64,000 bases of DNA, taken from the NCBI GenBank assembly GCA_964019055.1, contig OZ025215.1:8159284-8223283 (forward strand). The letters are read 5' to 3'. The stretch's first letter is position 1, and each line of letters starts with the position of its first letter. The translations under genes were made by a program, and so were the position numbers. This stretch comes from Anthopleura xanthogrammica. Taxonomy: Eukaryota > Cnidaria > Anthozoa > Actiniaria > Actiniidae. The notes below the pieces were generated by a model. It did no database searches and had not been told where the DNA came from. It saw nothing but the letters and a program-made list of their open reading frames with translations. Of the stretch, positions 10,407 to 46,610 are shown one piece after another.

Positions 10407-10595
10407 CTAACGTTTCTTGAATCTTGAGTCCTGGGGGAATCCTTCATAATATTGCTCGTAAAAATCTCGGGGAAGACCGTCTTCTCGTGCTAAGGGGATG
10501 TTATTTCTGCCATTTCTCAGAAAGGCGTCTCCTGTCTGGACCATAACACCGGCAATAAGGACAACAAGAAGTACAAGAACTGTTCCTTTAGACAT
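10407..10595 (-). CDS. secreted neuropeptide precursor, FLRN-Gly (Antho-RNamide-like), gene 1
   Basis: A 62-residue open frame. Residues 1-24 form a hydrophobic signal peptide ending in GDA, followed directly by FLRNGR. Signal-peptidase cleavage would expose FLRN-Gly-Arg: Gly is the usual amide donor and Arg a processing site, giving FLRN-amide. Sea anemones contain Antho-RNamide, 3-phenyllactyl-Leu-Arg-Asn-amide, whose expected precursor is Phe-Leu-Arg-Asn-Gly. The remainder is an acidic, Tyr-rich spacer (DFYEQYYEGF) with a basic end (FKKR). The ATG at 10593-10595 lies 12 bases after a minus-strand acceptor (CAG, 10610-10608), so a 5'UTR intron is likely, with its first exon at 14025-14092. 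The last codons contain AAAC|GTTAGT, a weak possible donor in phase 1, where genes 2 and 3 splice to a tiny last exon; I found no clear downstream exon. Signal peptide and motif are direct observations; processing is inferred. Confidence 0.82.
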   Translation of the reverse strand: MSKGTVLVLLVVLIAGVMVQTGDAFLRNGRNNIPLAREDGLPRDFYEQYYEGFPQDSRFKKR

Positions 10596-10607
10596 GATGA
10601 TTAGTTT

Positions 10608-13600
10608 CTGAAAACAAACACATAAAATCTTAGGCTTTGACGTTTAGTCGTGATTAGTACGTTGACGAAACAAGGGTGGGGCTGGGGGTGAAGGGTCGAC
10701 CTATGGTAACATGCCGGGTATTTTATCTATAGTAGACATGAATAAAATCTGTTCACTATAGTTCGAGCCTCGAACGAGAAATAGAGAAGAGAAGAGAGAA
10801 ACAAAAAAAAAATGAATTATTCGATATTGTGACATTTTAACCGGCTTATGATTAACACCATTAATCCTAAATTTGGCTTAAAGAGCGCGTGAGGAATCAG
10901 GATGTTCCATGAGAGGATCACTCCCTTGCCTACGTCTCCACTAATAAACACATGCACCTAACAATCAAATTGGTGATGGAAGGTTAAGGGGGCTCACTAC
11001 CACCCTAGAAACGGCCATGAATACCAAGGTTGGTGATTCCAAATGTAGAATCAAATGTATAGGATGCAATAGTCTAAACTACAAAGACGGATACAAAGGC
11101 TTTCATTGGTGCAGCAAAATCCCATACCATCAATCATCTCGCATTAGCTTTTCCAAAGCAAGCCGGATTTTGGATAACTAAATTGCTTAAAATTTCAAGC
11201 TCAGTATTGCTGACTTTCATTATTTTACATGACCTTGAAAGTACGGGATTACCAATGCGTGCATTATTGCTTTATTGATGAGTGGATTTATCTAAAGGCG
11301 CTAATAAGGAACAGTTTGGTACTCTTTATCGTAGTTAGGCGAAAATTGAATAAGTGCAGGTTTTGAGGATTTGTGAAATTTTTTCTTAATAAGATTAAAT
11401 ATAATGGAAACAGAAGAGGGGATTGAATATTATTTATATTGTAAATGCATTATATGAATTATTGGCAATCAGTTTAATTCCTAACTCATTTGTTAGAAGT
11501 TTCCACTATTAAATACTAGTGTAGCCGGATGTGATTAATTTTGGTATGTTTTGGTGTGTATTTAATATTTTAATCTAGGATTTGTTTTAGGCTCTTAATT
11601 AGTCCAGTTTGCTGCACAAAATGAGTTTATAATACTTAGAATAACAATTATAATATACAAACATAAGATATTATATCAATAGTAAAATTAAGTTGATTTA
11701 AAAAAAGAAAGAGATAGAAATAAAAACTAAAAATGAAAAGTAGGACGAAACAAGCAGAGTAAGAGAGGGAAAGGAACGAAGGAAGGAAGGAGGGAAGAAA
11801 CGAAACAAAACAAAAAGAAAAGGAAAGGAAAAAAAGAACACTGTTATTGATATATGCCCGGAATAAAAAGCCCACGGCTAAACATTGACATTTTCTTACA
11901 AACTGCCTCAGAGCAAACAATATATAAAACATTTATTCTACTCTGCTACAGGAAATGATGCCTCACAGGGAAAAGGGATTTATCATGTTTGAACGATTTG
12001 ATGTGGACTCCGGATCAAGTTTGTGGCATAATACCTAATGTGTTCGTGAAAAGCCCTTGAGTATGAGAGTAGATTGAAGAGATGCTTTAATCTATGTAGT
12101 ATACGAAATTATGAGCTAAACGAAGAAACAATGAAATAAGGGCGATGAACACCATGAACATAGATACACCTTAATGTAACTGAGTCAAAAAAAAAGTGAA
12201 ATTCAAAATCTTTAATGTACGATTAAGTTGTTCCAATGAGTATGCTTTTTCTCGCTAACGTGGTCGTAAACAATTAGATAGTTCAAAAGCACTGTTTGAA
12301 TACTCATGAGTCAACAACTTCGAAATACTGAAAAGATAGTCCTATCAGTAGAGATAAGGCAAAGATAATGTAAATTCAACTACGCAAAACAATGAAAAAA
12401 AGATGTCAAAAATGGGTGGGGATGTTGTTGAGTTGAATTACCGACTTCTATCAAACTGATCAAAGATGAATCCAATACTGAACATTTCTTCAAAGATTTT
12501 ATAGATAGCTTTTCGAGACATTCTTTAATGGGAAATCTTCCCAAGGACTGAAAAAAATCCTGTAACGCTGGTCTTTACAAGCATGACCAATATTTCAAAA
12601 CCCTTTTCAAATGTTTACTTTATTCCCGTCTGTTAGGGATTGAAGAAAGAAATGAAATTATTATTTTTCCCAGTTTTTCAAGGCTTCCTGCGGCTTTGAC
12701 TGTTAGCCAACTGCTTGGTATAAAACCGTTTTTTCTTGTTTTTCTTGTTGCTCCTTTTTCATTCACGTTCCGATTTCTTTCAGTTCTTACTTTTTCTTAT
12801 TAACAGTTTTTACCGTGACTTAAAATTTTATCTTTTTCAACTATCGTTAAAAAAGAGGAGAAAAATAAACAAGAAAACTAACAAATAAGAAAAATAATAC
12901 GAAAGTGAATACGGCCGTTACTTCTGAGAAGAATTGGAGCCTGAACAGTTCAGCCATGGGCTCGAGTCCCGTTCTAAGCCTGAATTTTTTTCAGGCTTTT
13001 TCAGGCTCTAATTTGTCGCAGCAATGACGACCGTATTTACTTTTATATTACTATATCACGACTGATTAAAGGCAACTACACTTGAAGAAGAAGACCTGTA
13101 TTTTATAGACGCGTACATGATCCTGGAGCTAAGTCTAATATTAGTGGAAGTTCATAATACAGAATTTGAGAGCGCAAACAAGAAATAACAAGAGAGAAAA
13201 AAGCAAGAAATAACAAGAAATAACAAGAGAGAAAAAAAGCAAGAAATAACAAGAGAAAAAAAAAAGCAAGAAATAACAAGAAATAACAAGAGAAAAAAAA
13301 GCAAGAAATAACAAGAAATAACAAGAGAGAAAAAAGCAAGAAAAAAAAACCCCAAAGAAAAAACAAGAAAAGGAAAACAAGAAATAACAAAATAATATTC
13401 GGTGAATATGTCTTAGTACGAATAAAGACCTAGTCTGAAACTCTTTGAGTTGAATATGAGAAGTAACGAAGAGAGCGAATTGAAGAACGCCTTTTTAGCG
13501 CCGTTTTTTCGCCGCGCGCGCTGTTCGACTAATAGACTTTGTCTCTGGTACGAGGAGTTTCGTTTAGTAAGTTGAATCCTTTCAGCTCTTTTTATATACC

Positions 13601-14024
13601 ATTTCTTTACGGCATATCCTCATAAGGAATAAAATAAACTGAAAATGTGCCAAAAGCCGTTCCTTCACTAAGAATTAGATAGGAAAATCAAAAGAAAATC
13701 ATATATTTTGAACTAATTTTTCGGCTTGCTTTTTGAATTGAACGTTTCATATTTTACAAAACTTCACTGGAACAGTGTTGAAAAAAACAAATAATGCAAC
13801 GAGTGGCTTTCTTGGAAGACTCTTTAGTTGAAAAAAATCTAATTTTCTAATACGCTTTTCCTAATTTCCTTATTTCAAATTTTCTTCTTTATACTATATT
13901 TTTCGAAATAGTGTATAGAAAATCTTTCATTAAGTTATTGTTGATAGAGAACTCGTACATTACTGCCATTATAAAAGAGCTCAGTTAGAAACCTAAAATA
14001 AACACGAAGCAAGATGCTACTCAC
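10608..14024 (-). other. probable 5'UTR intron of peptide gene 1
   Basis: Bounded by a minus-strand donor (GTGAGT, 14024-14019) and acceptor (CAG, 10610-10608). It contains purine-rich stretches (11700-11840), a minisatellite at 13180-13372 and otherwise AT-rich sequence. No other coding exon was recognised. Confidence 0.5.
13180..13372. repeat. minisatellite of GCAAGAAATAACAAG units
   Basis: About seven imperfect units built from AAGAAATAACAAGA and A-runs. It produces long Leu/Phe/Ser open frames on the minus strand that are not genes. Confidence 0.85.
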
Positions 14025-14123
14025 CCTCTTATTTTCAGTCAAAATCAAACTCTCAAAGACTCAAGCGCTGAATGAAGTTGTTTACTAAGTAATGATCCAA
14101 CCCTAATGCTATCCCATTTTATA
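14025..14123 (-). promoter_or_regulatory. TATA box and first non-coding exon of peptide gene 1
   Basis: Minus-strand TATAAAA at 14123-14117; transcription probably starts near 14092. An exon of about 68 bases ends at 14025 before the strong donor GGTGAGTAG. This mirrors the TATA-plus-donor units before genes 2 and 3 and lies about 3.4 kb upstream of the coding exon. Linkage is inferred from orientation, spacing and shared plan. Confidence 0.55.
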
Positions 14124-17100
14124 GCAAATTTCGCGCAGGGCAAACTGCAACTTCCAGTCGGATGTTAGTGATAAACTATTCCCTATCGAACCAATCAGAC
14201 AAAACTAACTAATGAATAACAGATTACGTGCTTGTAACTGGTAGAAAAATTCCCATGCTAAATTGGTTAGAAAAGATGATTTGAGTCTCGAGTACTTGGG
14301 GGATCTTATGAATTATAAGTATTTGAGCGATGAATACCGAGATATAACACGCCTTCATTACGAAATACAGCTCTCAAATGACAAATTTTCGTCACTCAGT
14401 TTCGAAATCAAAAATACCTTGACAAATGATCCAAAAGAACGAAAATAATAAAACAATCTCATTCTGTATTTCGATACGTTGTTTTAGAGCGATTTTAGCT
14501 TTGAAGAGTTGTTCTTTCGGTTGAGTTGTTGCGCTTTTCTTTAAAAATGATATTCAACTAAGATGGCGCTGATGATAAGCTTTCTAAAGACCGTTCATCC
14601 CACGTTGAGTTCGCTTAATTAGGAAATTAAAACAGAGAAATATCAAAGTAAAATCGTTTCACACCTATAGTTTAGTCAAATTTTAGAATATTTTTAAAGA
14701 TAAACTTAGTTTTTTCCGTCATTAGCTTCAGTTATTCAGACCGGAACACTGTCCACATAATTAAGAAAAATAACCGCGACATTTTATGACTTTGTGAAAG
14801 AAAGTCGGACAAAAACTTGGCAAGAAAATGTCTTCATCATTCTAAATCCTTCAAAACTGAAAGCACAGTGGAAGCTGCTAGGGGAAAATGTCAAGACATT
14901 TTGATTAATACTAGTTTTCATGGAAAAAAATTGTGTTATTTTGCAGTTGTTTAAGTTAGTACTGTAAACAGGAGAGAATCGCGACCTTTTGTAACGGGAA
15001 ACCGATAGATTGTTTTTAATCCTGGCTTCGACTTAATTACTTAATGACATATTTAAAGAAATAAGCAATAGATAATTACGATTTTTAGGGTTGACCGACT
15101 GTGAGAGCTAGAAGGGGGAAATATCTGGAATTCATGCGAGCCTTTCAGTGTTTGTCAAGAAAGTTTTCAGGCACCAGGGAAAGTTTTACCAGTAGTTTTC
15201 TAAGCTGAGCGCTTAATGACAGTTAGAAGTACAAAAGTACAGTAGATAAAGAGATTACTGAATACATTTACTAAAGAAATTAAAGCTTTTGTATATTTTA
15301 AGTAGTTCTTCCATCCAGGAGGCCAGAAGCATATGCAAAATGTCTTCCACTTCTAAAAAGAGTAAAAATCCTTATCAATTCTCACCTATAATGGTTATGA
15401 ACTCAAACACTTTTTGATTCACAAGAAAGATACTTCAAGTTCTGCTCTATATTTATCCTTCTAGAGTCTTTGGCTAAAAGCATTGCCTTTTTGCCTTCAC
15501 AAAAACTTTCAAGTATCTGATAATTGACACACAATTCGCCTGGAGATAGCATTGCTAATGGCGTTGCCAAATGACTCACAAAGAAAGAAAAATTACTCAT
15601 TTTAGATTGCAGCTCTCAAGGTCCTTAAGCTCCCACTCATATTTTTCAAAAGAAGTAGTTTTTCGGTTGTCAAGAGAGCAGATATTTCCTCGCTTCTCTC
15701 TGGAAAGCAAATATGTATTTAACTGACTGATATTCGTGTCAGTCCATGACTGAAAAACTTGCACGTGCATGTGAAAGATTTCGGTTTGTTTTGAAAATAC
15801 AGAATTAAATCTTATACAATTTCTAACTTTCCGTCATATTTTTTTTGCAAACAAGACATTAGTTTACTATTTAGTTTTCTTTAACTCGAATACAATTAAC
15901 TTTTCAAATACAACATTCATAATATTGTCAAACAGCAAATAATTTCTAATTAATCTTGTAATTTTGACGTCGTTTGACTTTGAAAATATCTTGCTCTTTC
16001 TTCAAGCAAAAAATAACATGTTTTTCTTTCGTGCTTGAGTAGTTTAACTTAGAGAACGCCAAAAGTTTTGATTAAACAATACACTCAGACTTGGTCCTCA
16101 AGATTTTATTCGATATTTTCTCAAACTTGTTGTGAATTCAAAAAGTGTTTTCCACATTTATCTTTTTACAATTTGCCTCAAAGTAAATTAAAAATTATCG
16201 CCAAGATATTGAGTTTTTCATATCATTTCCATTCGTAATCACATTTACAAATAAAGTTATCGCAATCTTTGAACTCTCTTAGCAAATTTTTGTACCAAGT
16301 CGATAGACAATATGAATATTTCAATCCATTTTGAGCTGCGAATAGGAAATGTGTTGTACTCGGAGCCACATTGTCGACCGTTTTACAGGAAATTCCTCCG
16401 AATTATGATCCTTTTTTCCATCAAATCTTTTCGCAAATGCCACAAGTCAGATTGTAGTGAGATATTCCAGATCGTTTTTATATGGTTTATCGCTTAGCCG
16501 CAGCGCTATCACAGGAGATTTTACAAGTCGTATCTCTGGGCAATCCCAAAATATCTATTCAGAGTACATCCGTTGAAAATTCACTGCATTCATAAACCTC
16601 TTTCCTGGCTGAGATTAATTTGAATGAATTTTTTTATCAGTTCAGATCTCTTGGAGTGAAATTTTTGGCGGAAAAACGTCAAGAAATTTTCCACAAGATC
16701 CTGTTTAACTATTACGCCTTGCCTTAGTCTAGTTTATTCTTTTTTCTATTCATTTTTGTATCCTTTCCCTTGCGGAGATAAGCGCTGCTTGTGGCAAAAG
16801 TTTTAGTTTTACAGCTTTAACGACGTGGGAGAAAGCAGAGATAGCTAACGATGAGTAATATCGCTAATGACTTTATGAAGTACTTTCTGATCATGACATC
16901 TTGTGTTTTCTGCTGCTAAATCTAAAACGCTAAGGTGCGAACCAAAATGTTTTCCTATAACTATCGAAATTAGCTGCTTTGCTCATAGTTAATAGATTAT
17001 TAACTATGCTTTGCTTTTCTCCTCTTAATTACAAAAATACTAACAATAATTTGGTTTTTTTAGCCGCTTTTTTGAATCAAGAATGTTTTCAGTGTACAAT

Positions 17101-20100
17101 CTCATACTTTGCTTTCAAAACATTTTGAAGCCTCGTAAAAAAACATATGAATATTTTCAATCATTGAGTTTCCTTCAAAAAAATATCCTAGCCTTTGTTT
17201 TGGTCGGTCGTTTCATCCACTTTTGTTCTTTAGTTATTCCAAAATATTAGGAAATTCTTATAACTTTCTTATTAGATCGCAGAGGATCGCCAAAGTTCAG
17301 TTTTCATACATTCCTAGGTTAATTTTGTACACATCATTTAAACTGTACAGCGGAATTCAAAATGCAAAGCTTTCGCGCATGCGTAAGTCAAGAGTGAGCA
17401 TTACCAAGTGTGTTAGTTTCTTGAGCATGCGCAGTAAGAATATCACGAGCCCTGCGTACGTACTTAACACACATAACAAGGAGACCAAGAAGAGGACAAG
17501 CCATGTCTTAGCTGTTCATATCTTTGCTGCTGTCCAAATGAAGGGTTAACTGAGAACTATTTAGTCTCACAGCACATTCTCGGCTGAGTTTCTCACTTCT
17601 TCGCACACCACAGGGTGACCATTTGGAAAAATAATCATGTCAACATTTTCGCTCCTGTTTAGTTGTGGTCATAGCTCACATTCCTCACATCTGTCAATAT
17701 AACTATTGAATCAGCTTGATTCTCGCACTGATAACCACGGTCAGAAATACCACAACGACATGAAAGTCTATACTTGACGTGGCTATTTTTAACTACAGCG
17801 ACAGTTTTTAACCAAACTCGGCTAAAACTGTCCCGCCTTGGTTCAATGACAATCCACCGCTGAATAAACAAGATTTCCATCCCAAAACCAAGATAAACCG
17901 CATCGTTATTAATAGTAATAGCAATGCCAAAGGATGAAGCTATTTTGTGTTTTTGTACCGCCTTGGATGCCAGAATATCTCACCGCTGAGCAAAACAAAA
18001 ACGCAAAGCCTAAAACCATGACAAACCACATTGTAACGGCAATAGCAAGCAACAAAACCCAGTTGTTGTTTACCAACTATTCGTGCTTTTATTCGTTGTC
18101 GTCTTGGCCTATAGACAACGAGCCACCAGCCATTTTGGATCCAAGTTTATGCCGATCGTCATAATATAAAAATCTTATTATCGGACTATGAGATCAGATT
18201 GAATGAATGCAGACAATCAGGAGAAAATGCTGATTCTAGACACTCAACATGTCTTCAATGATATGACGGGAAGTTATAAACACAAGCTAGCTACCCTTTA
18301 AAGCTGCGCGCGCGTTTCCAAAACGTAACCGCGATGAGCCAAAAAAAAAAAAAAGAAAGAAAAAAGAAAAACAAGGCAACAAACAACAGCAATAACAAAA
18401 AAGACAAATTCTAAGATTCTTTCACAAAAATCATATTACTCAACAAGCAGTGATAATAGTCTTCTTTTTTACATCAGCTCGACAAAAAATTCTAAAAATT
18501 CTTTGAATGTCTCGCCAGCCAGGTTTAGTTCTTAGATTTGGATGAGTAACGGTTTGAGAAGAAAGTCTCCGTTGGATAGATTACACGATTCTCAGCCAGG
18601 ATTGAAGTGTTAAGCTTTTGCTCATATATTGTACCGTATATTTATTTACAAATCCTCAGATAACTTTATTTTTATTGCTGGATTTCAATCATAATTTCTT
18701 GTTAGAGTGAACTTATCCTGAGATTTGGCTTTAGCCATAGACAGGCAACCGAGCAAACATGGCGCCAGCACTGATTTTACAAACCACCGCCATACTTAGT
18801 ACGCGGACGTTAGATTTAGATCACTTTTTATAAAGAGTTCAGTTTTAATAAGGCTCAGAAAATAGAAAAGTCTGGCGGTCTACAGACTCAAGTAAAACAA
18901 AAGGAGACCGCCCCGTTTCAGTGATATTGAAAAGCTTATGTATAAGAACTTCCAAGTCGTAAAGCGAAAGAATGAGGGCAAAAATGGTCATATGTAACAT
19001 GGTTTAACATGGTTATAGCAAGATTAATCCCAGTTATTTAGGCTCTGATTTTTTTAATGAAAAATATGATTCATTTTTAGCGCTAATTTTTGCAACATTT
19101 CGTGATATTCAATTTCTTATTTCTTAGATTTCTTATTCAAAAATGTGCGAATACGCACGCCCGAACAACAAAACTCCAAGATTGGACGACGAAAAAAAGA
19201 CTCGGTCATCATAGCAAAGCTCAATTCAGTACTGTACATAGTTCTGGATTGCTTTCGATATTCACGCAAATTAATTGCAAACCTAGATAAAACCTAGCTC
19301 CTCTTGTTAGCTTTCGAACTGTAGTCGTTTCAGTCTTAAGATGAAAAAGACCACACCCAGCAGACAACACCCCTATATATCAAATACGGCACTGGCTACC
19401 TGTCTTAACTTCGTATTAATATATATATATATATATAAACTTATATACTTAAGACTATATCACAGTCATTCTCTCCCTAAAGAGACTTAAAATATAATTG
19501 ATAACGAAGACTTACTTGGAATCGTTGTCTCGAACCTTGTATTTTTGGTAACTGTAATATTCCTCGGTAATCTATTGCTTATATATATAGTGATTCTTGC
19601 GGTCATGTCCCAAATTGGTTAATGAATTTTCGAAGACAGGTAGTCGTCTTAAAGGGGGTTAAATTAAATAAAGACAGCACGCTTTTAATTAAATTGCACC
19701 GTGGACTACGATTAGGACAAAATTAGTGCCACCTTAATAACATCCGAAACGGTAAACTATAATCCCAGAAAAAAAACTATTGAAAATTTTCTCTTTTAAT
19801 CGAGCCTAAAAAAATCCATGAAAACATATTTTGTTCTGACAATATATATGCTCGTCTTGTTTTTGTGATAATCCCGAACGTTCTAATGGAACAAGAGCCA
19901 TACGGTCTCACCACGCTTACGAAACAACAATGTCCCAACTATAATAGGTTTTCGTTTTCAATAAGGTGGTTTCATGTGGGGTTGGTTCATAACGTTGTTT
20001 GAATACAACCCAACACCCCAGTGTTCCAGTAAACCACTATTATACGACAATACGCTGGTTAATTTAATAACAGCGTCATTAGTTCTTAAGAACGCAAAAA

Positions 20101-22136
20101 TCAAATGACTTTGTCATCGTACGTAAACGTGAATCTTGTCAAAACAGGTTTACTTGTGCGTGTGCAGTTATGAGAACAGCGTGATAGGTTTATTGGTATG
20201 TTTTTTGATGAAGTATATAAATGAGTATTATATAAGTAGCTGTTGACAAAGGGAAAAAAGATCTTGCTTGGCTACCAAATTAGGATATTTTGGTTCGGAT
20301 CATAGTGGGATATTTATCAGCATTGATGGAGGTTCGCGGAGATTTGATTTTTTGTCAACAAGTTGCTCTTTAATTCTCTTTTTTTTATCTCTTCATGTTT
20401 TTCTTTTTGACTCTTTTTTCTTTTCGTATGCTATTCTTTTCTGTTCACTTTTTCTTCTGATCAGGGCTTTTAAAAAAAATTTCGATTTTTACTAATTTTC
20501 TCTTTCATTTAATTCTTCAACTTATTATAACTTCCCCTCTTTTCTTGCATGTTCTTTCTTGTTTGCCCCTATTGTCCCTCCTTTTCTCTTTCCCCCATAT
20601 CTTCCCTATTTCTCCTTTTTATCATTGCTTAGTTCCTCAACGTTCTTTCTATACACTTTTCCAATATTTTCCAGCCCCTCTACTCCCTCCTCATTCCAAC
20701 ACAACAGACGCTGAGTCTAACATCATTGTCCTCGTATTTCCTCCTGCAACACATCTCTAATACCAGCAGGATGGATTACCCTAGCCTATGAAACACTAAG
20801 CAAATTACGCCTCAAACTTTTCTATAATTCTCTAGCCGCGCAGGCCAAGTAACAGGTGCTTGTCAGAGCAAAATTAGTCAGTATCATAACTCATTTTATC
20901 ATCCCACATGTGACAACACATCACTAATACTAAAAGCCAACTAGTGGAAGACGTTGAATGTCATGGAAGTAATGGAACACTGACACTGAATCCAAACTGA
21001 CACCAATAGTTGACAGTTATGCCAATGAGACAAAGAGGGACTGTACACGTCTTGGACTTGGATAGCTTCCTAAATGAGATCTGTATATTAGGTTTTTAAA
21101 CTAATAGCACTTAGGCGAACACAGTAAATATAGTAGCTCCAGTGACAGACCCAGTGTAGCTTGAGGAATCTGTAAGCTAAGGAATCTGTAGAAATCTTCA
21201 ATCAGCTTTTTTAAGACCATTGCAATGTTTCAGGATCACTTTTATATACATTGATATATTCTAACAACAAAAATTTAAAAAAAAGTAAAAGTAAAGTAAT
21301 TCAAAATTCGATCTGTGTCTGTACTTGATGTTTTTTATTTTAATTCTGTGTTTTCTTTTAAACTCAGATAGTTTGTATTTTTTGTTTTTGTTGAATTTGA
21401 CCAAGGAAAACAATGAATAGTGCGCCGAGATTTTCCTCGGAAGAAGAAGGAAAACTATATGTTTTTTTTAGAAACTAATAAAAATTGTTGAATTGCGCAT
21501 GCTTTTTGAAGAGAGACAATCAAGCGAACACTGCTGGGGAACTAAAATTTTTTAATCAAATCATTTCACAAGTTGAAAACACATCAAAACTGTGAACAGC
21601 AAACTGGTATGCGAAGGCACCGAAACAGTAGGACTAGTTTAAACAAAAGTCATATTATTGCCTCTTTATTCGAGAAGTCATTGGAAACGAAGGTTCGGAA
21701 GCAGGGATCAAAGATCGTCTGGTGAAATACCGCGATAATTGGGATGTGTAAAGAAATGGTTCATTGCTAGTAATCGCAATACAAATACGCGCGCGTAATG
21801 CCTGGCACAGCCTCGGGAAATATTCTATTAACTTATACACTTAGGAAAGCACTTTCAGGTTAATGATCGGTATTTTACGGATTTCATGATCAAATACGAT
21901 TCTTTTTTCGGCTTTTTAACAAAGCTTTTTTTCATTTTCTGCCCATTGGTTACTATTTGTGACATTTCTAGGAGATTAACAGTCAAACTTGCGTCGTACA
22001 TTGCGATGAAAAGAGGACGGAAGGTTGGGGAACCAATCTAAGACGATTCGGAACCAAGGACTTGAGAATTAACGATCAGCTAGCTAGAAAATGTTAAGCT
22101 TTAAGGCACATTCCTTAGGGCAATATTCGTTCGTAC

Positions 22137-22268
22137 CTGTATTAAGCGACCATCTTCGAAGATGGTCGCTAAATAGAGGTTGGTCGCTTAACAGAGGTAT
22201 AAATTACCGCAAAAACCCTCTTTGGGACTTTGACAACTGGTCGCTAAATAGAGGCAGGTTGACTTAAT
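22137..22268. repeat. GGTCGCTAAATAGAGG repeat element
   Basis: Contains three copies of a GGTCGCT-TAA/AAT-AGAGG motif and an inverted start (AAGCGACCATC / GATGGTCGCT). Related 'TTAGCGACCA' motifs fill 38815-40165. Confidence 0.5.
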
Positions 22269-27016: not shown

Positions 27017-27019
<3 letters not shown>

Positions 27020-30021: not shown

Positions 30022-30061
<40 letters not shown>

Positions 30062-32760: not shown

Positions 32761-33544
32761 CAAACCACCTATAGTGAACATCGTCCAACATGGCTGCCAC
32801 TTTTATTCCCTTAGAAATGATTACAAACCACCTATAGTGAACACCATCCAACATGGCTGCCACTTTTATTCCCTTAGAAATGATTACAAACCACCTATAG
32901 TGAACATCGTCCAACATGGCTGCCACTTTTATTCCCTTAGAAATGATTACAAACCACCTATAGTGAACACCATCCAACATGGCTGCCACTTTTATTCCCT
33001 TAGAAATGATTACAAACCACCTATAGTGAACATCATCCAACATGGCTGCCACTTTTATTCCCTTAGGAATGATTACAAACTACCTATAGTGAACATCGTC
33101 CAACATGGCTGCCACTTTTATTCCCTTAGGAATGATTACAAACTACCTATAGTGAACATCGTCCAACATGGCTGCCACTTTTATTCCCTTAGGAATGATT
33201 ACAAACCACCTATAGTGAACATCGTCCAACATGGCTGCCACTTTTATTCCCTTAGGGATGATTACAAACTACCTATAGTGAACACTATCCAACATGGCTG
33301 CCACTTTTATTCCCTTAGGGATGATTACAAACTACCTATAGTGAACACCATCCAACATGGCTGCCACTTTTATTCCCTTAGGAATGATTACAAACTACCT
33401 ATAGTGAACACCATCCAACATGGCTGCCACTTTTATTCCCTTAGGAATGATTACAAACTACCTATAGTGAACACCATCCAACATGGCTGCCACTTTTATC
33501 CCCTTAGGAATGATTACAAACTACCTATAGTGAACATCATCCAG
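32761..33544. repeat. 63-bp tandem array, 12 full units
   Basis: Twelve complete units plus a 24-base partial unit, with few substitutions. Because 63 is divisible by three and no unit carries a stop, a 302-codon frame (32699-33607) runs through it as a 21-residue repeat. There is no signal peptide, domain or promoter support. Each unit contains CAACATGGCTGCC, close to the YY1 core AANATGGC. Substitutions cluster in adjacent units, suggesting recent expansion. Confidence 0.95.
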
Positions 33545-33601
33545 GATTTTATTTATAATAAGTTATGTTACGTTGTTGTATTTTTTTCTGCCCGATACTT
33601 A

Positions 33602-35457: not shown

Positions 35458-35673
35458 TTTCTTCTTCTTCTTCTTCTTCTTCTTCTTCTTCTTCTTCTTC
35501 TTCTTCTTCTTCTTCTTCTTCTTCTTCTTCTTCTTCTTCTTCTTCTTCTTCTTCTTCTTCTTCTTCTTCTTCTTCTTCTTCTTCTTCTTCTTCTTCTTCT
35601 TCTTCTTCTTCTTCTTCTACTTCTTCTTCTTCTTCTTCTTCTTCTTCCTCCTCCTCGTCCTCGTCCTCCTCCT
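35458..35673. repeat. long (TTC)n trinucleotide tract
   Basis: About 60 nearly perfect TTC units (one TAC interruption), then TCC and TCG variants. It gives false poly-Ser and poly-Glu frames. Confidence 0.98.
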
Positions 35674-36668: not shown

Positions 36669-36775
36669 TATAAAAGATATCGAAAAGGTTGCTTTGCTCA
36701 CACGTCAGTTTGAAACCAGTGGCAGTCGAGGATTACCAGCAGCTATCCGATCAACTTTACTCCTAAATTACTTCG
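36669..36775 (+). promoter_or_regulatory. TATA box and first non-coding exon of peptide gene 2
   Basis: TATAAAA at 36669-36675, a probable start near 36700, and an exon ending at the donor TTCG|GTAAGT (36775/36776). The coding exon opens 1.5 kb downstream at 38271. Confidence 0.65.
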
Positions 36776-37869
36776 GTAAGTTTTAAAAAAAATCTACAAT
36801 ATTCTCCAAAAAGATATTCATCCTTTCTTTTGCCCCAATTATGTTTAAGTTATTAAGAATATTAGGGTCAATTTTTGGAGATTTTGACATTTGTTTGAAA
36901 GTAGAAAACAGTCCGGAAAAAATGTATACGTAGCACTGAGTAATAAGAAGAGAACGGGTCTTGAAGAGAACGGGTCTGTCAGTATTGATAATTCATTAGC
37001 TTGTAATAATATTAGATAAAACTGTCTAATAGCTTTCTTAAAAGATTTAGAATTGATTATTAGTATCATTGCCTTCCAATTATTTGCTTTATAGCTTTAT
37101 AATCATAAGGATACTTCAATAAATACTGAGCTCATCGGATTAAGAAACACGAGTTCGAAAGCCTTTAAAATGCTGAATTATATAGATCATTCTAGATTAC
37201 TTGAAATATCCCTTTATTAGACCTTAAAATGTTTTTAAGTAACTAAACTTGGGTTATTCTGAAGATTGAGAAAGGTTTTTGAACTGTACATCTCAATCAA
37301 ATCATTGAAAAAGGCTGTTTTTTGAGTGTTTAAGAGTTGGGATTTCCCCCCTTTTTTTTGGTATTGTCGTTTTAGACGCGATTCAAGTGTTTAATGCCGT
37401 CAATCATGAAAGCCCCATCTATTGGAGCTTAAACTAGATTATATATTTAATTAGATCACTCCAGTTCCATCATGATATTACCCTGCTTGCAGAAGTCTTT
37501 TTCTGCCCTCCGTTTAGCTACGGAGGGGAAGAAAAATAACCTCTGCTCGCAGGGTAGTTTCATGTTAGTATTCTCTGAATGTACAGATTGTACACAAAGT
37601 AGGAAAGGAATTGGAAAAAGCAAGTTCAGAATATGTTACGTAAAACAGACACAAGAGGGCATTTCATTCAAAATATTTTATATGAAGAAATGGGCTGTTT
37701 TTAAATTACAAAGTTATTTTGTTTTAAAAAATGATCAGATTTTATAGTCACATGGACGAAGATATCAAACGATGATGATGATGACTTTAATTTCCAATCA
37801 ACGAGCGAGCGTAGATAGAAAATAGTTACTACTAGTATCATATACCGTACACTACCACATTTTCCTTTT

Positions 37870-37930
37870 TTCTTTCTCTTTCTCTTTCTCTTTCTCTTTC
37901 TCTTTCTCTTTCTCTTTCTCTTTCTCTTTC
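37870..37930. repeat. (CTCTTT)n microsatellite
   Basis: About ten hexamer units within the 5'UTR intron of peptide gene 2. Confidence 0.95.
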
Positions 37931-38276
37931 CTCCCTTTCATTGCTGTTTCATTTCGGAACCATTTAGTTCCATTTCAATGCCAGAACTCTTGATTCTTAA
38001 AACATGGCTATTACTTACAGACCCTAGCACGCATACGAACGCACTGAAATAGTGCGCTTATTTCTGAGGTTAGGTTTACTGAAGTAGATAGAGGCAAAAA
38101 AGTGATTACCGCGAGAGGCGGGATGCGGTCGTCCGTCCTCCACTACTGCTAATTATTTTAAGCAGATTATAAAGATTTGGCCAGTGTTAGAGAAAATAAT
38201 AATATAATTTAGAAAAATCCGAATTCTTGTTCTAAAATATTCTTTCCCTAAACTTGTTTTTCTCTTGCAGTTACCA

Positions 38277-38696
38277 ATGGCAACCAACAAGAGCCTCGTT
38301 TTCGCAATCGCCATAGTCCTAGTTCTCAGTCTCTTCACACGGACCGCGACCTCATTTTTCCGAGAAGGACGAACGCTACAAACCAGACAGCCCTCCAACG
38401 CGGGTATCTTTGATCCAATTAGACAACACAGCGATTATGAAACCCTTCCATCAGAAGAACTTAGTAATGCCTTCAAAGAATTTCTACAGAAGAAATCTAG
38501 AAGTAAGACTTAAAATATTTTAAAATCTTTCCAAAGTATGGTTTCCCCTCATACGATAGCGAACCAATCACTGTTCAATGCAGCAGTTTTCCCAGTGGAA
38601 TAAAAGTCTTGTCCCACAAAAAACTACACAGTATCTGTTTTAAAGAGTACTACAAGGATCACAATACAATCCTATTTTATTTTCACAGGAAAGTAA
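38277..38696 (+). CDS. secreted neuropeptide precursor, FFRE-Gly variant, gene 2
   Basis: Coding exon 38277-38502 plus a tiny last exon 38689-38696, giving about 77 residues ending in SRRK. The ATG follows the acceptor TTGCAG (38270) by six bases, as in the other two genes. Residues 1-25 are a signal peptide (IAIVLVLSLF core) ending in ATS, followed directly by FFREGR, aligned with FLRNGR of genes 1 and 3. Predicted product: FFRE-amide, a changed form with Leu to Phe and Asn to Glu. The spacer is acidic (SDYETLPSEEL) and the end basic (QKKSR). The phase-1 donor A|GTAAGA at 38502/38503 and acceptor TTTCACAG at 38688 match the phase in gene 3. If the intron is retained, the frame stops at 38511-38513 and AATAAA at 38599-38604 could end the transcript. 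Whether the altered peptide is amidated or active is unknown. Confidence 0.78.
38599..38604 (+). terminator. candidate polyadenylation signal, short isoform of gene 2
   Basis: AATAAA 86 bases after the unspliced stop codon and inside the proposed last intron. Confidence 0.4.
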
Positions 38697-38814
38697 ACAA
38701 GTGAAACAATTTAAAATCAAATTTCCGCAATTAGGGTTAAAAGTTTTGAGATATTTTAGCTAATTTGTTGAGCTAGTGGGACATGATGGACAATTATCTT
38801 ATAATATCTTTTAT

Positions 38815-40165
38815 ATCAGCCCATTGTTTCAGCGACCACTACGCTCAGTTATCAACCATTTCACCTCTTTTAACGACTACATTTCTTATCAACCACGTTT
38901 TGTCCTTTCCTATGAAAAAAGCACATGTTACTTGCCTAATGCACATCATCAGCTTGTTACTTGAGGGAAGTAGAACATCTGGTCACCGAGTCATTCCTCG
39001 TTAGCTTGAATAACACATACGTCGTCATTAGCAAATTCCAGATTTTTAAATAACTTTTTCTTAGTCTTTTCTATAATTTGTCTTGATTGAAAGAAGTGTC
39101 GTGTCTTTCGAGATTTTTGTTTAGTAAGCTTAGCGCTGATTTGACAATACATAATAAAGTTTAAAGATTTGTAAAAAAAATTGCCTTTCCTCTCCCCCCT
39201 GAGTACCAAATTTGCCTTCCCTGAATGAAATCGAGGTGGGCCCATAGCTAAAATCAATTAGCTTGTCCTATGCTATCATCGTGCTATCATCATATATATG
39301 CTATGCACAATTCGACCATTCTTTTGCACCATATTGCTGGACTATAAGAATTAGAGTGGAGATTGGCTGCTTAGCAACCGATTAGCCATGGTAGATCGTG
39401 TATTACAGTTGAGCCTGCAGTTCACACATTCTGTGGTTGTTTTCTTAAGTCAATGCCAATCAAATTCAATGCCATATTGACTCAAACTGATGGCTGACAT
39501 CTGGAATATCCGTAACAGCATATGACAAAATTCAATTAGTTAATATCTAAAATCGCTAATAGTCAATTTGAAAGTGCGTTTTTATAGTGCGCATAAGCCC
39601 AACACAGCGCGCAGCTTTATTGTGTGTGTGTGTGTGTATGGGTGGGTGGGTGGAAGGCGGAGGGGGGGGGGGGGGGGGGGGGGTTAAAAGAGGGGGAAGG
39701 GAGGGAAGACAATTGATCATGTGACCAGTCTCCAGCTAATCTCTGAAACACCTTTCATTGCGACCATTTATGTCAGTGATCGAATACCTCATAGTCATTT
39801 CACGACCAAATTTATTATCGACCAATTAACTCTCTTATCGACAAAATGTAGAGAACACTTGACTGAATATATGTGTATTTCCGACATCGTTACACGTACT
39901 ATCCCAGGGGCCACTTTCCTCAGTGATCGATCACCTCTGTCACCGACCACGTCCCTTATTAACACGATGTTTTAGAGACCGAGTCTCCTAGAAACCACCT
40001 CCTCTTAGCAACCATCAGTACATCAGCATATATACTGTCTTAGCGACCACTTCCCTTAGTGATCGATCAACTCTCTTACCGACCACGTCTCTTATCGACA
40101 CAATCAAATAAAGACTGAATCTCCTAGAAACCACCTTATCTTAGCGACCATTTCACTTAGGAATG
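38815..40165. repeat. degenerate array of TTAGCGACCA-type motifs
   Basis: Motifs such as CAGCGACCAC, TCAACCA, TTATCGACCA, TTAGCGACCA and AGTGATCGATCA recur at roughly 20-30 base spacing, densest at 39745-40165, with unrelated sequence between. It looks like a decayed minisatellite. Confidence 0.5.
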
Positions 40166-40315
40166 CAGCTTCGATTATATAATGAATAATAAAGCTAACC
40201 TTTATTGAAGATGCCTACATCACAACGGTGATAAACAGAAAGGATATCCTCGAAACAACTGATCAAAAAATAGATATATGTATAGCTATGATATCGATAT
40301 TTGAATTTATTTACT

Positions 40316-40466
40316 AGGTAAAAGTTAAACGTGAACATTGGGGAAAAAAATATTACTGAAACGTTTTCGACCTTAACTTTAAGCTCATCATCAGTAGTAT
40401 TGAAAACAATATACAAGGTGTGAAAACGTTTTATATTTTTTCCAACTTTCACGTTTAACTTTTACC
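40316..40466. mobile_element. foldback element with AGGTAAAAGTTAAACGTGAA arms
   Basis: Left arm AGGTAAAAGTTAAACGTGAA and right arm TTCACGTTTAACTTTTACCT are exact complements, then ATATT/AATAT with A/T runs. The interior has GAAACGTTTTCGACC and CTCATCATCAGT. Confidence 0.7.
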
Positions 40467-41566
40467 TTGTTATATTTTAGTATTTATCTATTTATTTTAT
40501 GAAAGCAAATATTATGACAATATCATTTTTAACCATCTCCTTATTTTTATTCTTATTTCCAGGTTTTAAAAGAAAACAGCAAGATTAAGGAATAAAATAA
40601 AACGAATGATTCAAAATAACTATCAGGATATATAGGCTGACCATATTACTAGCATTGAACGATGGAATCAGTGATGAAAGATTTTTATTTAGTGAACGGC
40701 ACAAAACAAAATTCAAGAGCATGAATTTAAAGGGTCACTGTAAACGTGCTTCGCTTTGTTGACGTGTGTGTGTGTGTGTGTGATCAGTATGTGTTAGTGA
40801 AAGAATATGAATAAATATGAAATGAAAAAAGAATGAATAATGTCATTGATTTATCTTATTCCCATTCACATTTATCGTTCATTTTTTCTTGCTTTCTCGA
40901 GATTTTTTTTATTTAAAAGTTTACCAGTATTTTTCCATTTTTTTTCGTTTTTCTCTCCTTTTCTTACTTTTACTTTCTTCATTTCGTCTCATTTCTTTTA
41001 GATTTTTTTTTTCATTTTCATTTCTTTTTCTTTCTATTCCATTACCATTTCCATCAGACTCATTTATCAAAGCCAATATTTCCTTTTTCCATACCTACTT
41101 TCAACTACTGCATACCTGACAGACTTTAAATGCAGTCATATCAATTATTCAATAGATAATTCATTATTATACTAATACGATTCAAGAACAGATGTTCGAA
41201 TGCCACTCTGAAAAGCTCCATCCTCAGCAGAAACTCATGGAGTATAAACAATCCAAATTACAACCCATTAAACCTCATAATTTTGTGTTCAAAATCACTG
41301 CATAGTATCAAGATCATAGCGATATATTTTTCGTTTTTTTTCCTCTGTTTTCGTGACCTCTGTATGTCGTAGTTCCATCTGTTCTAGACTAATAATTTCA
41401 AACTCCCTCAGGCCACGGTTGTAGGAGAAAACATTCACTGTATCGAACAGCAATTAACTCAAACAAACTCGGTAATATCGCTGAAGAAAAGTCAGAATGA
41501 ATTATTAATGTTATCTAATTGAATTATTGGATTGTGTTTGAGAAATTGAAGCGGCCATCTTGGGGC

Positions 41567-41744
41567 TATAAAACTGGAATCCGTTATATATTTCTGAGCA
41601 AATCATGCGAGGTTTTTGCTGATTGCACGAAAAAGAAGGATATCCTGACCGAGCGACGTAAAAATGGTCAAAATGTCTCGACCAAAGATGATAATTCTTG
41701 GAGACATTCTACTTCTTCTCTGTGCTCTTAATAAAATTGTATAA
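41567..41744 (+). other. possible tiny TATA-driven unit with a 26-codon frame
   Basis: TATAAAA at 41567-41573, ATG at 41664 with a hydrophobic run (IILGDILLLLCAL) and a stop at 41742-41744, overlapped by AATAAA near 41729. The frame resembles a signal peptide with nothing after it. It could be a truncated relative of the peptide family, an unspliced first coding exon, or chance. Confidence 0.2.
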
Positions 41745-42239
41745 TTCATGAGTACAAGTCTCCGAGTACAAGTAGAGAGGCGAATAATCTAGCAGTGCAT
41801 TTCCCAGTGGCTAGACGTTTTTATTTATTTCATTTCGGCTTGAAAATTTTCTAAAAGGTCACCGAAAGCTAAAAATGGATTTTGTTGAAGGTAATTGGTA
41901 AAAATCGTGAAATATTCAAGAGATTTTCGGTACCTTAACTTGATTATGTTTTCCTACCGAATACGATAGTATCGCGCTAAAAGTAGACCTTCTCTTTGTC
42001 TCGTGCTTATAAATAGTAAATAGTACGGAAAAGGTGTTTGGAATCACTCAGTTTTTTACTTAAAACCTTTTTATATATTGTCGCACAAAGCTCTCTTTTA
42101 ATTTGTTTTTTAATTTCAAAAGAGTGGGGCCGAATATGAGTGGTTTCAGTATTTTCTTCGTTCTGATTCTTTTTACCCCTCTTTTTCTCTCCAATTTTCC
42201 GTTTTGCTATCCCTTTTTTGTTCATTTTTTTCTTCCTTC

Positions 42240-42250
42240 TTTTATCTATT

Positions 42251-42292
<42 letters not shown>

Positions 42293-42372
42293 CCCATTTT
42301 CCTCTCTTTCTTTCTTTTCTTTCTTTCTTTCTTTCTGTTCTTTCTTTCTTTTCATTTCTTTCTTTCTTCCAT

Positions 42373-42408
<36 letters not shown>

Positions 42409-42640
42409 TTTTCTTTCTTTCTTTCATTCTTTCTTTTCTTTTTTCTTTTTTTCTTTTCTTTTCTTTCTTTCTTTCTTTCTTTTCTTTTCTTTCTTTCTTT
42501 CTTTTCTTTTCTTTCTTTCTTTCTTTCTTTCTTTTCTTTTCTTTCTTTTCTTTCTTTCTTTTTTTCCTTTTTTCTTTCTTTTTTTCTTTCTTTCTTTCTT
42601 TTCTTTATTTCTATTTTCTTTCTTTCTTTCTTTCTCCTTC
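42240..42640. repeat. (ATCT)n and (TTTC)n microsatellite
   Basis: About ten ATCT units at 42243-42280 followed by about 350 bases of degenerate TTTC repeats. Confidence 0.97.
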
Positions 42641-44130
42641 TAGAATATAAAATATCAAATAACTCATTCCCCATGCACTTTACATAGCGTCACATACACC
42701 TCTGACTATCGAACTAGCCTTCACTATCACATCAATCTTTTTGACAACCGAAGTTCATTTTTAAGAATAATATTTGGTGTCATTCTTTTCGAGCTGAACT
42801 AGAGTCTTATTTTGATTTTCTAAAATAAATTTTACTCATATCGTAATACAGAAGGTTGGAATTTTGCAATCCTAACGGACAGCAAACCCACCTATATTTC
42901 CCTTTATTCATTAGCCTTGTTCTTCACAAGCAAAACACAAAATAAATCACACTTACAATATATAGAGTTTAGCTCACGTGAAATTGAAAATATTCGTTTG
43001 TGTGTAACATAACTCTGTCGTTTAAACGAACCTAAATTACAACTTCAATATGAAGTGAAATGCAATGGACTTATCCCCCACAAACTCATTCAGATATGAT
43101 GAAGTTTTCAAGTCATAAATGGATTTAATATTCTATTTATCTGTGAGTCAATATATCAACTCCTTGGTTCGATGGGTTTTAAAATCTTTGGCTCAATATT
43201 TCAAATGGTTGAGTGGTGAATTCCTATGGGGAAGAGTAGTTACAAAGTGAATTCCACCGAGCGAACTTGGAAGATGTGCCGTTTTTAAAATATTCTTTTC
43301 GCTCGAGGATTTTTCTTTGGCTTTCATTTTAATTCTGTAATAATAAATATACTTAAATCTGTAACATCTAAGCCAGGAAATTACGACAAGGAAAGAAGAA
43401 CTTTGATACTATTAAGGACTTTTATTATCGCTTCTACATGAACTTTTAGATATTGAATGAGGAATCTCGACAATCACAGTCCCTCCTTCAACCCAAAACA
43501 ACAAAAAATATTGAAGTTTTCAGCGACCAAACGCGTGTTTTAGCTTCGTTATCAGCCGAGTTCAACCCCACAGGGCTGCCAAGTAGATGATAGTCGAAAA
43601 AATCTTTTAGCTTCATGAGATTAAAATGTGAGTAAGATGAGTTCTTTCAATGAACCGCCAAAACAAAGTGACGAATTTAATAACACAAAAGGTGAAATCA
43701 CATCCTCAAAGGAAAAGCTGATTAAGGCTTTAATTCTGAAGGATTTTCTTCTTACTTCGCGAATATTTTTCATTTATTATGTACTTCTTAAATAAGAACT
43801 TTCTTTCAACCTTTGAACGAAGTAATTCTATACTTAACCGAAGCACTCAATACTTGACCACGACAACAGTCTCTCGAACCATCTTGATTTGTTTACTTGA
43901 AAATTTATGGGGAATCTTATGTTTATAGAACTAGATTTTGTTTGGTGAATGATCCATGAATTTTTGTGGGAAATACAGCATGTGTTTATCGGTAAAGAGC
44001 TGCGTAAATGCCCATCAATGACCCCATTATTATTAGTCTTCCTTATCGAGTTATCTTTTATCGCGGCGAGTAGACACATTTCGCGTCATTTACATCCGAG
44101 GGAATTCTTTACCTTGAAAGCTCGCCAGAG

Positions 44131-44207
44131 TATAAAAGAAGTGGGAATTCGATCCTTTAGTACATATTGCATACTGAGGAACAACGACTGAAGAAGACTC
44201 CTAAAAG
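44131..44207 (+). promoter_or_regulatory. TATA box and first non-coding exon of peptide gene 3
   Basis: TATAAAA at 44131-44137, a probable start near 44160, and an exon ending at the donor AAAAG|GTAAAT (44207/44208). The coding exon opens at 44917 after TTTCAG. Confidence 0.7.
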
Positions 44208-44944
44208 GTAAATTTCTTCATCTATTTCTGATCTTGACTTTTTCATTTCTGAACTGTGTTTTCATCGCTCAAAAAGAAATGCAAAACCAGAGTTAGCAAC
44301 TCTCAAAAAGATTCACAACTTTTTTTTAAATTACGCTTTTTTAAAACACATCAAACCTAAGCTTTTTTTTAAAGCAAAAACGTATATTTGAACCAGAATT
44401 TAAACGTTAGTATTTGGCAATTCTCTTGTCACGAACTTTCTCCTTTGCATGCCCCGGGCTGAAAAGTCGTTTTTTCAGCAATTTTGGCCAGTTTCGCATC
44501 GCCTCCTATCCTAGATTTGAACATAACTGCTTAAACGTATGTAAACCATACGTAAATGAAACCAAATTATTAAATCCTAGTAATGAAAATAGCTCATTTT
44601 GAGAGCAAAAAATATATAGTTTTTATGATTTTTTAAAATTTTTTTCCAACGTCTTAAGTTCTTAGGGGTTTCCCGCCCTTTTTCAGCGACAAAACGAATA
44701 AAGTGGTTTCGCGACTAACACGTAATTCAATTGCAATCGATTCTTATTTCTGGATAACAACAGGCTTATTAGAGGCCTAGGAACAGAATGATTTTCACGA
44801 CATTTTTTTACGTGTTAGCGTTTATTATTAAGGCACTTGTCTTACTTTTTCCCGCGCTTTTTGATCACGTGATATCTTAATTAGAGTTGTAAATGTCTTA
44901 TGAATGATTCTTTCAGAGAATTCCCGCACAACCAAGATTTTAAA

Positions 44945-46610
44945 ATGGCATCAAGCAAAACACTAGTGGCTCTCCTTGCCGTGTTCATGCTGTGTGGAGT
45001 CGTGTTCCAGTGCACTGACGCCTTCCTTAGGAACGGACGAGATGAAATCATGGCGAGAAAACGGGCTGAGATGGGCAGCCCACCCTATGAAGAAATGTAC
45101 CAATACGACGAAGCAAACATGGCCAAGGCTAGACGAGGTACGGGAAAAAAATTGTATCTTGTGTGTGTCTAAGAAATTATTCATAAGACGTCAATTTTTT
45201 TTATTAAATATACAATTGAGATAGTTTTAGATGCTTCAGGAAATAAGGATTTGAAACTCTGAAGCCCAACGAACAAAGCACGCGCGTGCGCCTTCATTTT
45301 CGCGCCAAAAGTAGCCAGCAAAAATGTTTTCTATCCAAACAAGCTAGAGTGATCAATTCTTGCCTTCATTTTGAGCTCGAGCACGAGTTTTGCTTTTGTT
45401 TTATGCATTTTAACCTTTAAAATCTTATCGAACCCTGAAACAACCTCTGGGCTGGTATAAATAAACATGAATATACTTAGGCATGGCTGTGACATGGCTA
45501 ACTCACAGATCGAATTGGAAATTAAAGTGTTGGGCTTTGCGGAAGGAGGAAAACCGGAGAAATTCTTTGAATATTACTAAGTTATTGTACATGAATGGTT
45601 TGCATTAAAGTGCGATATCAATATACAGAGAATTATCTTTCATAATGTTGCAAAATTGTCTAAGAATAATACAATAAAGTAATGGCCTTCAGGATCGAAA
45701 TTGATTAGATCGCATCTCTGATACACAACACTCTCTCGTGAACCTCAAAAATGCCGCGTTGATTCTGCGCACATTCGTATAGCACACCCTATAGTGCGGT
45801 ACATAGATATCAATCCATTTATTCCTTTTGAGCAATCTCCGCCTTCCCGACTCATTTAGATCTTTACTTGTGTTTATATCGGATTGATAAAGTAACATCG
45901 AGTGTATAGTCCTTTAGGAGTGAATTGGAAATATGGCGGGTACAAGGTGGCTCAAGGTTAAGAGGCCATATCTTTAGTTCATCCAGGAGAGGATGAACTT
46001 ACTGGAATACCGTGTTGAAGTATAGAAGGAAATCTCTAATAAGGGAAAGAAGTGGCCATATCTTGGTTGATAGTTAAAAAAGTGGTAGACGGTTATCTTT
46101 CGTAAAAAAGAAAAAGGTCGCATGTATATGAACTCAGTAAAATAATACTAGATAGCCATGACATATGGAAGCTTTAAGGTGTTTATTTGCAAAGGGGTTG
46201 GTCGCATGTAGGAAGGCAGCTTAGGAAGTGATATGAACGCATGTACATTCATAGAGAATAGCCGTTCGCGGGTAAAGAGTCGCATGTCAGTTATAAAAAG
46301 TGATCAGATGTGGAGGGTGGCCGTTCGAAAATTTCTATTTTCTACTGTATTTGATGCCGAGTAAGGGAATTGAACCCAAGACCTCAGAGGTGAGAGGTTA
46401 GTGCACTGCCACTACACGAACCCTTGATTCCCCGGCCGGGTTAATTGACCCTGAAGCCAAAAAGTACATCTGAACACCTGGAATCTTGAATTCCTATCAA
46501 AAAAAAAAACCCCTCCTCCAGCCGGCCCTCAAACTGTAAATCAAATTGATTATTCTAATTATCATTATGCTTTTCCTTTTCTTCCAGAAGCAAAGAGATC
46601 TAAGCAATAG
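44945..46610 (+). CDS. secreted neuropeptide precursor, FLRN-Gly (Antho-RNamide-like), gene 3
   Basis: Coding exon 44945-45137 and last exon 46588-46610, 71 residues. The signal peptide (LVALLAVFMLCGVVF core) ends in TDA, followed directly by FLRNGR, identical to gene 1. Cleavage and amidation would release FLRN-amide, the backbone of sea anemone Antho-RNamide. Next comes a basic ARKR site, a Pro/Glu/Tyr/Met-rich acidic spacer (SPPYEEMYQYDEANM) and a basic tail (KARREAKRSKQ). The phase-1 donor G|GTACGG (45137/45138) joins the acceptor TTCCAG at 46587. AATAAA at 46754-46759 is a good polyadenylation signal. An upstream in-frame ATG at 44900 lies in the 5'UTR intron and is not the start. The spacer does not repeat the peptide, so one active copy per precursor is predicted. 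Confidence 0.85.
46345..46440 (-). mobile_element. tRNA-derived SINE head, minus orientation
   Basis: The reverse complement reads TCGTGTAGTGGCAGTGCAC (A-box-like) and GGGTTCAATTCCC (B box). It lies inside the last intron of peptide gene 3. Confidence 0.55.

Follow-up and report, generated by a model that had tools for sequence, protein, structure and literature searches.

Three linked precursor genes of the Antho-RNamide type in the sea anemone Anthopleura xanthogrammica and their probable spread by whole-gene duplication

The window analyzed here, a stretch of 64,000 nucleotides from contig OZ025215.1 (C10) of the sea anemone Anthopleura xanthogrammica, holds three genes for short secreted precursors within 37.5 kb, which read FLRNGR (genes A and C) or FFREGR (gene B) at the end of a predicted signal peptide. 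Based on this layout, the three genes are very probably single-copy preprohormones of the Antho-RNamide type that would have arisen through old local duplications, in a family which would grow, and change its peptide, by the duplication of whole genes. Gene A is inverted relative to B and C, and the linked but dispersed family proposed in a preliminary description of this DNA is supported.

The window was scanned in six frames for the motif F-x-[RK]-x-G-[RK], in which the first x was any of 12 residues, and a broader motif was also run. The first scan returned three matches, all of which (3/3) had an upstream ATG and a hydrophobic signal-like stretch, and these are the same three reading frames that had been placed earlier at a plausible signal cut. 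The chance model was a set of 100 windows resampled from a second-order Markov chain, in which the motif itself occurred 2.96 times per window on average, and matches in a signal context were found three times in all 100 resamples (0.03 per window), with five such matches for the broader motif (0.05 per window), for which three of the five matches in the real window lie in this context. Given three real matches against an expectation of 0.03-0.05, the three precursors are not a product of chance.

All three precursors present a predicted signal peptide, the peptide at the junction, a Gly-basic amidation site, an acidic spacer, which had been called Tyr-rich and is so in A and C (three Tyr each) but not in B (one Tyr), and a basic tail. 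Each gene also has an acceptor-like site shortly before the ATG, which is a consensus match only, and its basic tail contains a donor in phase 1; the donors were scored with consensus weights and are likewise consensus matches, with that of gene A backed by a gene model from Exaiptasia. The precursors are short and probably disordered. No Pfam family passed the cut-off for A, B or C, and BLASTN among the three loci returned short or low-complexity matches only, which points to old duplications.

Short secreted peptides are numerous in sea anemones, and the three genes might encode peptides of another kind, used in venom or defence, in which case the match to FLRN would be coincidental. This is highly improbable, given that the parts that follow the signal peptide contain no Cys in any of the three, that the layout matches that of the published Antho-RNamide precursors, and that FLRNGR is kept in 7/7 homologues found (a count biased towards keeping FLRNGR, as these proteins were found by similarity). 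In addition, all six FLRNGR codons (6/6) differ between A and C, each by one base, and all of these changes are silent, an outcome in which six random changes leave the peptide unchanged in 6.5e-5 of trials, which argues for purifying selection on the peptide.

The gene type itself is known, and the window alone is therefore a modest find. According to the sections of Koch & Grimmelikhuijzen (2020; PMC7523074) on these genes, the preprohormones of Antho-RNamide (phenyllactyl-LRN-amide, family #7) are single-copy, with the Phe that becomes phenyllactyl directly after the signal sequence, and sea anemone species have two or three such genes each. Genes A and C have the same organization, with FLRN-G and a basic residue directly after the signal peptide, once per precursor. 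The central proposal of the preliminary description, that the signal cut exposes the Phe which is to become phenyllactyl, is thus already published in these sections of PMC7523074. The FFRE paralogue, the linkage of the three genes and the genome-wide picture are apparently new, as judged from the open-access literature; in the main text of that paper, 'cluster', 'scaffold', 'intron' and 'FFRE' occur 0 times, and this is also true of 'FFRE', 'KAamide' and 'intron' in the main text of Thiel et al. (2024; PMC11087051), whose sections on Nematostella report four receptors and two FLRNamide precursors, the latter with support from neighbouring peptides seen by mass spectrometry, and do not take up the arrangement of the genes in the genome.

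Gene A reads MSKGTVLVLLVVLIAGVMVQTGDA, then FLRNGR, and its first coding exon would end with the phase-1 donor AAC/GTTAGT. The earlier end of this gene at 10407 (...FKKR-stop) has to be abandoned, since the donor precedes that stop and an exon at 9174-9149 had been overlooked. The acceptor of this exon was picked among the nine that passed the scan because an Exaiptasia diaphana gene model (P0005) ends in RRFAKDMA (RFKKRRFAKDMA), which matches the RRFSKDMA of gene A. This actiniarian model (AIPGENE21965, record title 'hypothetical protein') is homologous to gene A (E 7.2e-15, 59% identity), with which P0002 and P0004 (a JGI protein) have 98% and 75% identity, respectively. P0002 has a Lys at the position of the window's TAG, which, judged from this protein sequence only, would fit a better donor there (GTAAGT) if the codon is AAG. 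The acceptor-like sequence before the ATG suggests an intron in the 5' untranslated region (5'UTR) of gene A.

When gene A was divided by hand into segments, the residues kept in P0005 were 15/24 in the signal, 6/6 in FLRNGR, 7/23 in the spacer and 14/17 in the tail, and those kept in P0004 were 18/24, 6/6, 14/23 and 9/10, respectively. As the spacer diverges most, it is the basic tail that is the second conserved element. A conserved acidic spacer with a role of its own is not supported; the preliminary description had proposed a second conserved role for spacer and tail. The phase-1 donor lies in this tail, to which, in A, a conserved last exon also contributes. In Nematostella, the sections of PMC11087051 on peptide detection report non-amidated peptides between cleavage sites beside FLRNamide and LRWamide, seen by mass spectrometry; parts of the spacer are released at least in this species.

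Gene C reads MASSKTLVALLAVFMLCGVVFQCTDA, then FLRNGR, and its first coding exon would end with the phase-1 donor GAG/GTACGG, while its acceptor has the top score among the seven scanned, a predicted exon structure that agrees with the extent drawn earlier (44945-46610). Its identity to P0001 is 97% and to P0003, 76%. Gene B, in turn, reads MATNKSLVFAIAIVLVLSLFTRTATS, then FFREGR, with the phase-1 donor GAA/GTAAGA, and there are alternative acceptors at 40563 and 41058; the AATAAA at 39153 favours the acceptor at 38689, and thereby a probable last exon that ends, as drawn before, at 38696.

Gene B is 25% identical to A and 28% identical to C. It has no FLRN-G, which sets it apart from Antho-RNamide, and no FFKA-G, which sets it apart from Antho-KAamide, although FFRE and FFKA are alike in their first two residues and in the basic third. 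Judged by its predicted layout, gene B is a paralogue, and not an Antho-RNamide gene, so that, of the three genes that had been described as FLRN-type, only A and C stand as Antho-RNamide precursors. FFRE-amide is a candidate new peptide.

Signal peptides were judged by hydrophobicity and the -3/-1 rule, which permits a cut exactly before Phe in 3/3 genes, and the signal peptidase would cut directly at this point, as has been published for the family. The subsequent steps by a proprotein convertase, a carboxypeptidase and PAM are general for amidated neuropeptides, and here the convertase would cut after the single Arg of G-R, the carboxypeptidase would remove that Arg, and PAM would turn the Gly into a C-terminal amide. 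The exposed N-terminal Phe would be converted by an enzyme to phenyllactyl, blocking aminopeptidases, as published for LRN-amide in other anemones. In this case, A and C would give one and the same peptide, phenyllactyl-LRN-amide, and gene B should give either FFRE-amide or phenyllactyl-FRE-amide.

A release of the peptides with a free N-terminal Phe (FLRN-amide), with the phenyllactyl conversion absent from this species, is improbable. It would be in line with the activation of four Nematostella receptors by unmodified FLRN-amide, in experiments in which, according to the receptor sections of PMC11087051, the phenyllactyl form was not tried, and with the statement in the sections of PMC7523074 on this conversion that the enzyme has not yet been identified. 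On the other hand, the same sections report that phenyllactyl-LRN-amide was isolated from Anthopleura elegantissima, whose precursors share the layout, and the conversion is retained here as part of the proposed maturation.

The genome was then searched with the proteins of A, B and C, which returned these three genes, B by its own query only, and one weak match (E 0.87), the FYRI precursor on contig C1. Among 17 genome matches to the pattern [AS]FLRNG, A and C alone combine FLRN with a signal context, and the other 15/17 were dropped, as they lack this context. An FF[KR][A/E/D]-like pattern gave 36 matches, 30 of them with loci, four of which passed a crude filter, and two of the 36 were accepted, an FFKA gene (L033) and gene B (L055). 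Two others (L037 and L038) are, together with L039, copies of one C2 repeat with no signal peptide, and were rejected by eye, and three further matches, for which the sequence was fetched, are not signal peptides. Protein and pattern searches found no further FLRN or FFRE gene in the host genome, with the surroundings of three of the 36 FF matches unread (C15:2762738, C19:9144485 and C20:21524). The first of these (C15:2762738-2762757, minus strand) has the matched letters SFFRDG, a possible further FFRE-like peptide.

A search with the FYRI protein revealed an array on C1 with eight precursor copies in 47 kb and four signal-peptide-only copies on the strand opposite to the tandem units. The precursors have a common signal peptide and a largely common pro-region, and their peptides are FYRI (one), HFRL (four, and a fifth whose frame stops two residues early), YFRL (one) and HFRV (one). 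Beyond the array, at a distance of 55 kb, is the FFKT precursor, which is 46-47% identical to the FFKA precursor found at 530 kb. In the sections of PMC7523074 on Antho-RIamide and Antho-KAamide (families #8 and #9), the preprohormones have the layout seen here, and this genome has the corresponding FYRI and FFKA genes, which differ from A-C in their tetrapeptides and contig and, in the case of FFKA, in the lack of a tail donor. The name of the FFKT peptide was not found in the literature searched, and for FFRE, HFRL, YFRL, HFRV, FRL, FRV, FKT and FRE as amide names, no relevant paper was present among the matches listed for the open-access literature.

Five of the C1 units lie on the minus strand, with a period of 6.33-6.39 kb, and four of the five (the first was left out) were aligned over 6255 columns, of which 126 are variable, many of them because one short repeat varies in length. 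Nine sites in these 6.2 kb, at -27, -6, 8, 32, 77, 78, 79, 82 and 87 from the ATG, set the FYRI unit alone apart from the three HFRL units, and they fall within 115 bp, which occurred in 0/200,000 random placements. All four of the amino-acid changes among them lie in the tetrapeptide, and all three silent coding changes in the signal part (Fisher P 0.029). As the cause of this clustering, selection that acts on the tetrapeptide only was rejected, since the sites span the 115 bp and include the 5'UTR and silent positions, which a short exchange tract explains more simply. The sequence upstream of HFRV is that of the HFRL units, which also points to such a tract, and a short exchange between C1 paralogues is therefore likely on this evidence.

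A third cluster is formed by four LRWamide precursors in 46 kb of C14, and the same four peptides are listed for Anthopleura elegantissima in PMC7523074; this shared set and the Exaiptasia match both point to Actiniaria. In its sections on Antho-RWamide (family #10), this paper describes a single copy right after the signal, and a phase-1 tail donor is found in 4/4 of the genes here. These peptides differ from FLRN in their N-terminal Gln (pyroglutamate), in place of Phe, and homology is only suggested. By contrast, the pattern QGRFG[R]-D/E had 20 genome matches, 19 of them inside 0.5 kb of C20, with 0 in the reversed-pattern control, and the QGRF locus is a single locus filled with repeats.

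Since both the signal cut and the block depend on the first residue of the peptide itself, such a peptide would not be amplified by internal repeats, and extra copies would need extra genes. A rule of whole-gene duplication predicts clusters of precursors with a like layout, as seen for the three genes of C10, the eight of C1 and the four of C14, as opposed to the single QGRF locus. A tail donor was found in 9/12 gene types, all in phase 1 (A, B, C, YFRL, HFRV and the four LRW genes), although YFRL and HFRV, as recent copies, do not count as independent cases, and a looser cut-off is needed for QSLRW. The codon-shuffled expectation for the 12 genes is 2.8 donor sites, half of them in phase 1, compared with the 10 observed, the tenth being in the mid-spacer of FFKA.

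A number of points weigh against this interpretation. Cuts elsewhere are also compatible with the -3/-1 rule (the allowed sites number two in A, five in B and two in C), so that the proposed cleavage at the Phe is allowed in each gene without being the unique site. FFKA and FFKT have no tail donor (none in FFKT, mid-spacer only in FFKA), the donor of FYRI/HFRL lies after the stop, and HFRL, HFRV and YFRL do not begin with Phe, so a single, Phe-blocked gene architecture is not valid for all of the clusters. The DNA patterns do not stand out from their reversed controls (FLRNG 17 vs 35, FF[KR] 36 vs 30, QGLRWG 2 vs 2), and for this reason, only matches in a signal context were accepted, with the patterns serving just to locate candidates. 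The duplication idea, in addition, is one that we infer from a single genome, with a single multi-copy family as the control. For gene B, the protein search returned no homologue at its sensitivity, so the function of this gene rests on its intact anatomy, and acidic residues are mostly absent from short cnidarian neuropeptides, according to the general sections of PMC7523074.

The lack of a homologue, together with the acidic residue that would be amidated and the single Tyr in the spacer, would also suit a scenario in which A and C are functional and no amidated neuropeptide comes from B, as a paralogue that is in decay or has taken on another use. This is unlikely, in that B has retained an open frame with a signal peptide, a Phe at the cut site and G-R, along with the acceptor-like site before the ATG, the GTAAGA donor in phase 1 and a poly(A) signal, and neutral decay to its present identity with A and C should have destroyed several of these features.

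The comparison of precursor profiles (hhalign) gave a probability of 91.8% for FLRN and LRW, partly from the signal peptide, and of 35.3% for FLRN and FFKA/FFKT. It is conceivable, if still rather doubtful, that the RN-, RE-, RI/FRL- and RW-amide genes form one superfamily with the peptide at the signal cut, in which gene duplication replaces internal repeats, and in which the C1 tetrapeptide acts as a cassette, with a tract of ~115 bp that swaps FYRI and HFRL. In the receptor sections of PMC11087051, the LRWamide and FLRNamide receptors are described as closely related, 'curiously twice in unrelated families', a kinship with which a shared origin of the ligand genes would agree.

Within the window, a fourth member was sought at 16816-16727 (minus strand; ATSSA/YLRKGK...MNRKK), which scores 14.1 bits with the hidden Markov model, a score reached by 2/200 resampled windows; a stop codon separates it from the upstream hydrophobic frame, and it was treated as a chance match or a decayed copy. 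The remaining features include the exons of a receptor tyrosine kinase at 352-6815 (plus strand; Ig, Kringle, Fz, Kringle and kinase domains), which we take to be like the ROR-type receptors except for the extra Kringle before Fz, and, at 53105-58653 (plus strand), exons that encode C-type lectin domains, with a laminin-G-like match below the threshold; long GT-rich tandem repeats (54468-55804) lie between these exons. A 63-bp minisatellite at 32761-33543 (12.4 copies, 97% matches) lies within a 302-aa open frame and is probably non-coding. At 48357-48892, a tRNA-Val prediction adjoins nested inverted repeats (arms 48534-48657 and 48769-48892, 94% complementary), possibly a mobile element.

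Table 1. Coordinates of the precursor genes and clusters (window positions unless a contig is given; exons, introns and acceptors are predictions).
Feature	Position	Strand	Details
Window	C10:8159284-8223283		host genome 289.8 Mb
Gene A	10595-9149	-	FLRNGR
Gene A, acceptor-like sequence	10608..10625	-	12 nt exon before ATG
Gene A, coding exon 1	10412..10595	-	24-aa signal peptide, FLRNGR (10506-10523), spacer, RFKK
Gene A, phase-1 intron	9175..10411	-	1237 nt; contains the TAG stop of the earlier reading
Gene A, coding exon 2	9149..9174	-	RRFSKDMA-stop; first R split by intron
Gene A, poly(A) signal AATAAA	8957
Gene B	38277-38696	+	FFREGR
Gene B, acceptor-like sequence	38253..38270	+	6 nt exon before ATG
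Gene B, coding exon 1	38277..38502	+	26-aa signal peptide, FFREGR (38355-38372), acidic spacer, KKSR
Gene B, probable coding exon 2	38689..38696	+	RK-stop; intron 186 nt
Gene B, poly(A) signal AATAAA	39153
Gene C	44945-46610	+	FLRNGR
Gene C, acceptor-like sequence	44899..44916	+	28 nt exon before ATG
Gene C, coding exon 1	44945..45137	+	26-aa signal peptide, FLRNGR (45023-45040), spacer, RR
Gene C, coding exon 2	46588..46610	+	EAKRSKQ-stop; E split by intron
Gene C, poly(A) signal AATAAA	46754
FYRI/HFRL/YFRL/HFRV array	C1:20222939-20269631		found by FYRI protein search
FYRI gene	C1:20235603-20235860
FFKT precursor	C1:20324177-20324401
FFKA precursor	C1:20799536-20799760
Four LRWamide precursors	C14:7064311-7110448		QGLRW, QQQGLRW, QSLRW, QGGLRW

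At the level of the locus, two genes would keep one peptide under strict selection, while their neighbour has changed its own. At the level of the genome, the clusters provide a testable rule, that neuropeptides placed at the N-terminus multiply by genes, rather than by repeats, together with candidate peptides on which the searches of the open-access literature gave no relevant paper (HFRL-, YFRL-, HFRV- and FFKT-amide). If the superfamily exists, its shared descent would explain the kinship of the LRWamide and FLRNamide receptors, and the swap of the C1 cassette would alter the N-terminal residue (Phe, His or Tyr), and hence the possible N-terminal block of the peptide.

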